Origin: Blattabacterium cuenoti
GTDB lineage: Bacteria > Bacteroidota > Bacteroidia > Flavobacteriales > Blattabacteriaceae
DNA length: 64,000 nt
Assembly: GCF_014252015.1 (NCBI RefSeq)
Contig: NZ_CP059206.1
Span: 1-64,000, forward strand
Direction: 5' to 3'
A program made the position numbers and the translations under genes. This document shows positions 59,994-63,587 of this stretch, one piece after another. Numbering within the stretch: position 1 is the stretch's first letter; each line of letters opens with the position of its first letter. The notes under the pieces are model-generated. The model was not told where the DNA came from. It ran no database searches and was given only the letters and a program-made list of their open reading frames with translations.

Positions 59994-60670
59994 TTATTTA
60001 TAAACCTTGTATACAATTCCATTTTCTATTTTTAATTTTTCATCAGCCATATCTGCTAATTCTAGATTATGAGTGACAATTAAAAAAGTTTGTTTTAATT
60101 TCTGGTTTAGAAAAGAAAAAAAATTATGTAATTTTTTTGCATTTTTTGCATCTAAATTACCAGAAGGTTCATCTGCAAAAATAATTTTTGGATCATTAAT
60201 CAAAGCCCTTGCTACAGATAATCTTTGTTTTTGTCCTCCAGATAATTCTTCTATTTTTGAATTATTATACTTAGATAAATTTAATTTTTTTAATAAATTT
60301 ATAGCTTTTTTTTTTACATATTCTTTATTTTTTTTGTAAATAAAACCTGGTAAACAAACATTTTCTAACACAGTAAATTCAGTAAAAAGTTGAGGAGTTT
60401 GAAATATAAATCCTATTTTTTGATTCCTTAAAAGGGAAAGTTCTTTATCTGTTAGAGATAATATTTCTTTTTTGTTAATTTTTATAACAGTTTTTATTTT
60501 TTTTTTATCGTTGGTTTTTCTAAAGTTCCTAAAATATGTAATAAAGTACTTTTTCCCGCTCCAGACTCTCCCAATAGACACACCATTTTTCCTTCTTTAA
60601 CCTTTATATTTACTCCTTTTAAAATTTCGTCTTTTCCAAAAGATTTGTAAATGTTTTTAGCCTGAATCAT
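59994..60670 (-). pseudogene. lolD: Lipoprotein-releasing ABC ATPase LolD, frameshifted at a poly(A) tract
   Basis: LolD powers release of lipoproteins from the inner membrane by LolCE. The 5' part (60670 down to 60494) encodes 58 residues with Walker A GESGAGKST at 34-42 and ends at a TAA directly after a run of ten A (minus strand; T10 at 60497-60506). The rest continues in another frame to 59994: IGFIFQTPQLFTEFTVLENV (Q-loop), ELSGGQKQRLSVARAL, IIFADEPSGNLD and VTHNLELADMAD. Adding one A gives KPTIKKKIKTVIKINKKE and a 225-residue protein of normal LolD length. All ATPase motifs are then intact. Either slippage, a sequencing error or recent inactivation explains it. Confidence 0.88.
60497..60506 (-). 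repeat. A10 homopolymer (minus strand) at the lolD frameshift
   Basis: Ten A on the coding strand, followed directly by TAA in the upstream frame. Eleven A would restore the LolD frame. Confidence 0.96.
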
Positions 60671-61970: not shown

Positions 61971-63587
61971 ATGAATAAAGTTTTTTCTGTATTATCTGAT
62001 AAATATAAGCCTTTGAAATGGAATGAAGTAATAGGACAAAAAGATATCATTTTTATTTTAAAAAAAGCAATACAAGAAAATCGTTTATCTCGAATTTTAT
62101 TTTTCTTTGGTCCAAAAGGAATAGGAAAAAATACATGTGCACGAATTTTATCGAACGAATTAAATTCTTTTTCAGATTCAGAATTAAGAGATTTTTCTTT
62201 AAATAGATTTGAGATTAATGGAATTTTTAATAATTCATTAGAATATTTTTATAAAATTATTAATGAATCTCGTTTTATTCCTAGAGTAGGAAAATATAAT
62301 GTATTTATTATTAATGATGTACATATGTTTTCTCAATGTATTTTCAATTCTATTCTAAGATTCATAGAAGAGAAACATCCACATATATTATTTATTTTTT
62401 GTGGTACAGAAGAAAAAAAAATTCCCAAATTTATTCTATCGTATTGTCAAGTATATGAATTCAAAAGTATTTCTACAAAAGAAATTTTTTTACATTTAAA
62501 AATGATTGCTACAAAAGAAAATATAGAAATAGAAAATGAAGCATTATTGATTTTGTCCAAATATGTAAAAGGATCTATTAGTAAAGCTCTTTATTTATTT
62601 GATAAATTGATTTTATATAGTGAAAAAAAAATATCTAAAGAATTTCTAATTAAAAAATTAGGGATTATTGACATAGAATACTATTTTAAACTAGTAGATT
62701 ATCTTTTAGATAAAAAAATATATAAAATATTCATTTTATTAGATAAAATATTACAAAAAAAGATGAAATCTTATGATTTTATCATAGGTTTAATCAAACA
62801 TTTTAGAAATTTATTTTTTTCTAAAAATTATGAAACATCTTATCTTTTGAATTTCAAGAAAGAGATATTGTCATCTTATATTGCACAATCAAAAAGAATA
62901 TCTTATTATTTTTTAATAAATGCTTTAAGTATTTGTATTCGTTTGAAAAACGAATATGAAAAATTCAATAAAAATTCTAGATTAACAATAGAAATTTATT
63001 TAATACAATTGTCATATTTATTTGATTCCTATAAAAATTATTTTTTCTTAGAAGAAGAAAAAGAAAATGTAAAAATTGAGTTTTTACAAAAAAATTGGAT
63101 AAAATTCATACATAAATTTTATGGAAAAATAAATCCTATTTATTTATATTTTTTAAAAAACGAAATACAATTTCGAGTAAAAAAAAATAAAATATTTTTT
63201 ATTATACCCGATAAATTAAAAAATCGTGGTTTTTTATTGATTAAAACACATTTTGTAAAATATTTTAAAGAAAAATTGAATAACACACATTTAGAATTTG
63301 AAATAGTGAAAAAAAATTCGAATGCAGAAATAGTGAAAAAAAATTCGAATGCAGAAATAGTGAAAGAAAATTCGAATGCAGAAATAGTGAAAGAAAATTC
63401 GAATGCAGAAATAGTGAAAGAAAATTCGAATGCAGAAATAGTGAAAGAAAATTCGAATGCAGAAATAGTGAAAGAAAATTCAAGTGCAATAGAACAATAT
63501 CATCTTTTATATAAAAAAAATAAATTAATAGAAACATTAATAGAACGATTAAATTTGAAAATATCTTCTTCGGAAATACAAGAATAA
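61971..63587 (+). CDS. dnaX: DNA polymerase III clamp-loader subunit DnaX, with eroded ATPase motifs
   Basis: DnaX (tau/gamma) is the ATPase of the clamp loader that places the beta clamp on DNA. The 538-residue product aligns by motif: KYKPLKWNEVIGQKDI, GPKGIGKNT (47-55), FIINDVHM (112-119), ILSYCQVYEF (155-164), then a helical domain III and a basic C-terminal part. Three functional motifs deviate. Walker A has Asn54 where Thr/Ser is expected, Walker B reads Asn115-Asp116 instead of Asp-Glu, and the SRC arginine finger is Ser157-Tyr158-Cys159. The tail (residues 444-506) is seven 9-residue repeats. It starts at ATG 61971, 23 nt after sucC. Confidence 0.86.
   Translation: MNKVFSVLSDKYKPLKWNEVIGQKDIIFILKKAIQENRLSRILFFFGPKGIGKNTCARILSNELNSFSDSELRDFSLNRFEINGIFNNSLEYFYKIINESRFIPRVGKYNVFIINDVHMFSQCIFNSILRFIEEKHPHILFIFCGTEEKKIPKFILSYCQVYEFKSISTKEIFLHLKMIATKENIEIENEALLILSKYVKGSISKALYLFDKLILYSEKKISKEFLIKKLGIIDIEYYFKLVDYLLDKKIYKIFILLDKILQKKMKSYDFIIGLIKHFRNLFFSKNYETSYLLNFKKEILSSYIAQSKRISYYFLINALSICIRLKNEYEKFNKNSRLTIEIYLIQLSYLFDSYKNYFFLEEEKENVKIEFLQKNWIKFIHKFYGKINPIYLYFLKNEIQFRVKKNKIFFIIPDKLKNRGFLLIKTHFVKYFKEKLNNTHLEFEIVKKNSNAEIVKKNSNAEIVKENSNAEIVKENSNAEIVKENSNAEIVKENSNAEIVKENSSAIEQYHLLYKKNKLIETLIERLNLKISSSEIQE
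63300..63488 (+). repeat. Tandem repeat, 7 x 27 bp, inside dnaX
   Basis: Seven head-to-tail 27-bp units encode EIVK(K/E)NS(N/S)A. Units 1-2 read EIVKKNSNA, units 3-6 EIVKENSNA and unit 7 EIVKENSSA. The period is a multiple of three, so copy-number change keeps the frame. Near identity of the units indicates recent expansion. Confidence 0.97.

Follow-up and report, generated by a model that had tools for sequence, protein, structure and literature searches.

Blattabacterium DnaX as a probable non-hydrolysing scaffold in a clamp-independent replisome

Comparison of replication genes across the genus Blattabacterium suggests that DnaX is, with fair probability, a non-hydrolysing scaffold in a clamp-independent replisome rather than the motor of a clamp loader, and that this holds genus-wide. 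The scaffold would probably act as a polymerase/helicase coupler. The analysis starts from the dnaX gene in the window, by which we mean the whole stretch of 64,000 nucleotides from Blattabacterium cuenoti that was analysed. The genome that carries the gene (G000) consists of one contig of 629,662 bp in which dnaX is the sole member of its family, and the gene is flanked by sucC and clpC, a synteny common to the genus.

By overall similarity the protein belongs to the DnaX family, with resemblance over the AAA+ core, lid and collar. It matches PRK14971 (E=1e-83, aa 5-357), PF13177 (56 bits, cut-off 27) and the structures of E. coli tau/gamma (E=5e-30); the match to TIGR02397 (E=3e-69) scores 233.9 bits, under the curated equivalog cut-off of 250 bits. 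As a clamp-loader ATPase it lacks all of the expected marks, namely a Walker A of the form GxxGxGK[T/S], the Walker B Asp-Glu, the SRC arginine and the sensor-2 arginine, and it is accompanied neither by the partners encoded by holA and holB nor by a polymerase with a clamp motif. The conserved collar and C-terminal tail of a tau-type coupler are there (Table 1), and the tail would be a polymerase-binding tail, the counterpart of tau domain V. The stretch that separates the C-terminal domain from the tail holds a repeat carried only by the window genome and not seen in the C-termini of other DnaX proteins of the genus.

Table 1. Features of dnaX in the window (positions count from the first letter of the window)
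Feature	Position	Strand	Basis or remark
dnaX, DNA polymerase III gamma/tau-like, 538 aa	61971..63587	+	ORF and DnaX model matches
Walker A / P-loop GPKGIGKN, aa 47-54	62109..62132	+	Lys retained, Mg-binding Thr replaced by Asn
Walker B Asp-Glu replaced by Asn-Asp (N115 D116), within FIINDVHM	62313..62318	+	motif alignment
SRC trans-acting arginine motif, changed to SYC, aa 157-159	62439..62447	+	motif alignment
Sensor-2 Arg-Asp replaced by Ser-Lys (S204 K205)	62580..62585	+	motif alignment
Domain III (collar, oligomerisation), approximate	62649..63005	+	alignment to E. coli gamma/tau
Genus-conserved C-terminal domain, aa 376-450	63096..63320	+	genus alignment
In-frame 27-bp x 7 tandem repeat (EIVKENSNA), near-perfect	63300..63488	+	between C-terminal domain and tail
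Conserved C-terminal tail (KNKLIETLIERLNLKIS)	63468..63572	+	genus alignment, omega, kept in G021

The preliminary description of the window had noticed GKN, IIND and SYC in this reading frame and interpreted them as three eroded motifs of a protein that is ATPase-poor or structural. All three are present as described. To place them, 46 readable Blattabacterium DnaX sequences were compared with 15 free-living DnaX of the same order, which are canonical at every site (15/15), with T in Walker A, DE in Walker B and RD in sensor 2; chance as the source of the changes is rejected because of this uniformity at each site, and the same substitutions do not occur in free-living relatives. Within the genus, the Mg-binding Thr of Walker A is replaced in 46/46 sequences (N in 41, S in 4, H in 1). 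A Ser at this position is still able to bind Mg. The Walker B Asp is lost in 45/46 and kept in one, the Glu is lost in 39 and kept in seven, and the sensor-2 Arg, whose loss the preliminary description had missed, is gone from all 46. The SRC Arg is kept in 27/46; the window DnaX has Tyr at this site.

Judged from the alignment, GKN and the loss of the Walker B DE are old and genus-wide, while SYC is lineage-specific because the SRC Arg persists in 27 of the 46 sequences. The P-loop itself is not eroded, since its Lys and three Gly are invariant in all 46 sequences, as they are in the free-living set, and the Cys-Ala that follows is invariant throughout the genus (46/46). Free-living DnaX proteins vary least in the ATPase core, whereas in the genus this order has broken down: Walker B, sensor 1 and SRC vary as much as the collar, and the P-loop is still conserved. 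The tail is better conserved in the genus (entropy 1.26) than in free-living relatives (1.67). As far as the alignments speak, the hydrolysis machinery was lost long ago and the loss is common to the genus, the P-loop being retained; a single gene eroding at random in a single genome does not describe it. The view of an ATPase-poor or structural protein finds good support: across the genus, the two side chains that coordinate Mg are lost, as is the sensor-2 Arg, in a frame under purifying selection. Loss of the zinc motif was considered as a further sign of erosion and rejected, as many free-living relatives are also without it.

The subunits with which DnaX would work are missing as well. No holA was found in the genus apart from cross-hits to dnaX, and the same search finds it in 22/23 free-living members of the order; no holB was found in the genus, and the same search finds it in 23/23 free-living genomes. 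These absences depend on the sensitivity of the profiles, with clear controls in the free-living relatives. A second dnaX, canonical or otherwise, or another clamp-loader ATPase was sought in the window's own genome and rejected, the search yielding only dnaX, ClpC, ClpB and a 328-aa P-loop protein. The earlier suggestion that replication relies on another ATPase subunit is therefore unsupported. Without delta, delta', the ATPase residues and the polymerase clamp motif described below, the sequences show a clamp loader that is dismantled genus-wide. An ordinary clamp-loader ATPase that tolerates its substitutions, possibly together with unrecognised delta/delta', would fit the clear overall similarity to DnaX and the SRC Arg kept in over half of the genus. 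We regard it as highly improbable, given that the two Mg ligands and the sensor-2 Arg have disappeared jointly throughout the genus, that the control searches find holA and holB in free-living relatives only and that the whole of dnaX is deleted in two lineages.

The replicative polymerase has changed in the same direction. DnaE is intact and full-length in 49/49 genomes of the genus, and in all 49 its clamp-binding pentapeptide (QxxLF type; QVSLF, QLSLF and similar) is deleted at the usual place. By a simple pattern, a QxxLF-type motif is found in 9/10 free-living DnaE, the tenth (FL051) having a divergent DLF. In E. coli, weakening the clamp motif of alpha 10-fold or more is not tolerated (PMC12309361). 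The genus DnaE sequences (L166-L195, L216-L234) carry a short Lys-rich linker in place of the motif, before EKEVLG..HPLD; this linker is perhaps only a matter of AT bias. The DnaE of G034, G064 and G012 is also without the conserved HPLD segment that follows the linker. A compensating decay was not seen, in that the C-terminal domain of DnaE diverges no faster in lineages without dnaX.

The clamp itself presents a mixed picture. DnaN (L196-L212, L249-L268) is intact in most genomes although the loader and the polymerase motif are gone. In most lineages it evolves under purifying selection, and its match to clamp structures is still clear (E=4e-68). Its client pocket is altered in the genus, with His changed to Tyr/Phe in 36/37 and the C-terminal MP to MS in 35/35, where the Bacteroidota clamp structure 8dt6 served as the guide to the ancestral state. 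Eight genomes that form one well-supported clade have no dnaN, and five of these keep a full-length dnaX; that divergence hides the gene in this clade was rejected, as a genus-specific profile was also negative. The gene is broken in G018, G065 and G002, and G004, with a gapped match, was scored as broken on the tree. A dnaN pseudogene has been noted in one Blattabacterium strain (PMC6039017). Conversely, dnaN persists in G022, where dnaX is deleted. Loss of mismatch repair was rejected as the cause of clamp loss, mutL being present in 49/49 genomes.

These observations bear on whether clamp loading continues by other means. A DnaX homo-oligomer could open DnaN and place it by nucleotide binding alone, or the clamp could load itself, so that a relaxed form of loading persists without hydrolysis. 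The strongly conserved P-loop would fit, as would a dnaN that is selected in most lineages and recognisable as a clamp, and the ubiquity of mutL, a common clamp client. Such loading is nevertheless quite unlikely: the delta subunit that would open the clamp is missing, DnaE is without its clamp motif and the clamp pocket has changed, and the two genes do not travel together, dnaX staying in the dnaN-less clade and dnaN in the dnaX-deleted G022. The relaxed clamp-loading mechanism of the preliminary description is an understatement, with the DnaE clamp motif deleted in 49/49 genomes and dnaX outliving dnaN in one clade.

The dN/dS comparison that had been proposed for this gene shows purifying selection, with an omega of 0.11-0.33 between close pairs and a pooled value of 0.19 (codon model). 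The values for dnaE and sucC are about 0.09 (range about 0.05-0.16), and dnaX is at about twice that. Regional omega rises from the P-loop (0.069) through the lid (0.10), the tail (0.144) and the collar (0.22) to the C-terminal domain (0.27). In most lineages constraint is strongest in the P-loop rather than in the tail, so that nucleotide binding would matter for something beyond tethering alone; the strength of this constraint says that bound nucleotide or a folded AAA+ module, which a pure tether would not need, apparently still matters. G009 and G010, the one close pair among the five clamp-less genomes with dnaX, have a dnaX dN of 0.19 with dS saturated, and using the dnaE dS of 1.1 we infer an omega of about 0.17.

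The gene is a full open frame in 42/49 genomes, in very AT-rich DNA. G003, G023 and G061 (L075, L076, L064) share a frame break at one A11 tract near codon 360, where a stop follows directly and the downstream frame is still open; the frame of G063 is broken at a T10 tract. In G020 and G022 dnaX is lost; a gap of 205 bp in G022 retains a decayed trace of the 5' end. Relocation of the gene in these two genomes was rejected, as the genus DnaX profile found none. Parsimony gives at least five changes of dnaX status, counted on a tree built from DnaE alone in which some forks stay open.

Such losses raise the question of slow pseudogenisation, in which dnaX is functionless and decays toward deletion as in other reduced symbionts. 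The two deletions, the four broken frames and the loss of the N-terminal part in G021 speak for it, as does an omega roughly double the value for dnaE and sucC. Still, this course is unlikely, considering the open frames in 42/49 genomes, an omega that is not near 1, the P-loop invariant in 46/46, the downstream frame left open by the three A11 frameshifts and a decay in G021 that is limited to the ATPase half. The record also counts in part against the scaffold, which must be dispensable in places because two lineages have deleted dnaX and four carry homopolymer frameshifts; counting for it, dnaX is kept under constraint in five clamp-less genomes. Also weighing against it are the stronger constraint on the P-loop than on the tail, the unchanged divergence of the DnaE C-terminal domain where dnaX is gone, and the intact dnaN of most genomes.

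Homopolymer slippage is known from the dnaX of Thermus. Slippage at a homopolymer tract has also been proposed for the dnaX of Blochmannia (PMC3017870). G003, G023, G061 and G063 resemble these cases in that their frames break at long runs of A or T and stay intact beyond the break. Such tracts can be read by slippage, which in these four genomes is a candidate only; the dnaX of the window is without such a break. For the A11 break in G003, G023 and G061, transcriptional slippage yielding a gamma-like short form is a candidate.

G021 offers a view of what remains when the ATPase is removed. In this genome, 625 bp after sucC are without ATPase sequence recognisable to the ATPase profile. The intact, stand-alone ORF of 248 aa that follows them (L043:2030-2776) consists of the collar, the C-terminal domain and the tail, and starts at about the position of domain III in the window DnaX. 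It matches the collar profile (E=9e-55) and the tail profile (E=1e-11), with 36% identity to the window DnaX, and its open stretch of 255 codons compares with a longest of 116 codons in 2000 mononucleotide shuffles. The tau protein of E. coli contacts DnaB through its domains III-IV and DnaE through domain V (PMC11869525); the half retained by G021 corresponds to this DnaB- and DnaE-binding part. The case of an ATPase-less DnaX rests on G021, one genome in one assembly.

Taken together, a sequence of events can be proposed for the scaffold. The sequences show that three residues of DnaX, the Thr and Asp that coordinate Mg and the sensor-2 Arg, were gone before the genus diversified, that holA and holB had disappeared, and that DnaE had lost the motif that holds it to the clamp. 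DnaX may still bind nucleotide, or at least keep the P-loop fold, and would not hydrolyse ATP for clamp loading. Its collar, C-terminal domain and tail would form an oligomeric scaffold coupling DnaE to DnaE or to the helicase, so that DnaX would have kept the tau side of the tau/gamma role, in a replisome whose working no longer depends on a loaded clamp. Some lineages have since lost more: the clade of eight its clamp, G021 the ATPase half of DnaX, and G020 and G022 all of dnaX. The fuller proposition, that the genus copies chromosomes of about 0.6 Mb with a replicase uncoupled from the clamp, the former loader motor being a catalytically dead scaffold with an ATPase half dispensable in G021, is in our judgement evenly poised between true and false.

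Among known systems, the DnaX (tau/gamma) of E. coli and of free-living Flavobacteriales is orthologous, and its P-loop, lid, collar and C-terminal tail are recognisable here; the Blattabacterium protein differs in having lost the Mg-binding Thr, the Asp and the sensor-2 Arg and in being without delta, delta' and the polymerase clamp motif. ATPase-dead AAA+ subunits, which keep the fold around a degenerate nucleotide site, are familiar from clamp loaders in the form of delta', delta and RFC5. Those, however, work beside catalytic subunits, and Blattabacterium has no catalytic subunit left. Replication without a clamp loader is the same end state that is found in more reduced symbionts. Carsonella is without dnaN, holA, holB and dnaX (PMC2175510), Portiera of Bemisia has lost dnaQ, dnaX, dnaN, holA and holB (PMC5322561), holA, holB and dnaX are absent from Evansia (PMC4122945), and dnaX is absent from Sulcia and Uzinura, the latter also without dnaN (PMC3971599). 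Unlike these extreme symbionts, Blattabacterium, with a 0.6-Mb genome, keeps dnaX open under selection after the catalytic residues, the partners and the polymerase motif are lost. Its dnaX and dnaN have been entered simply as present (PMC3971599). In the literature searched, no mention was found of the catalytic losses, of the loss of the DnaE motif or of an ATPase-less DnaX, and some of the losses may have been noticed before. Symbionts with smaller genomes are already known to have lost the clamp loader; the staged intermediate in Blattabacterium is a variant of that loss that appears to be new.

Clamps and ATP-driven loaders are regarded as universal for the replication of cellular chromosomes, and symbionts that have lost them are usually seen only at the end point. 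The 49 related genomes compared here show intermediate stages, in which the partners, the catalytic residues and the polymerase clamp motif are lost first, a non-motor DnaX is long retained, and then the clamp or the scaffold is lost separately. This makes testable what tau-type coupling is worth without a clamp and how a clamp-less C-family polymerase copies a whole chromosome. For genome annotation, 'dnaX present' need not equal 'clamp loader present'.

Elsewhere in the window, at 59994-60670 on the minus strand, lies a lolD-like gene for an ABC-transporter ATPase. Its N-terminal part starts at 60670, and the frame is broken near 60495-60509, at a run rich in A. From its reading frame it would be either a pseudogene or a slippage-read gene; lolD pseudogenes have been described in two Blattabacterium strains (PMC6039017).
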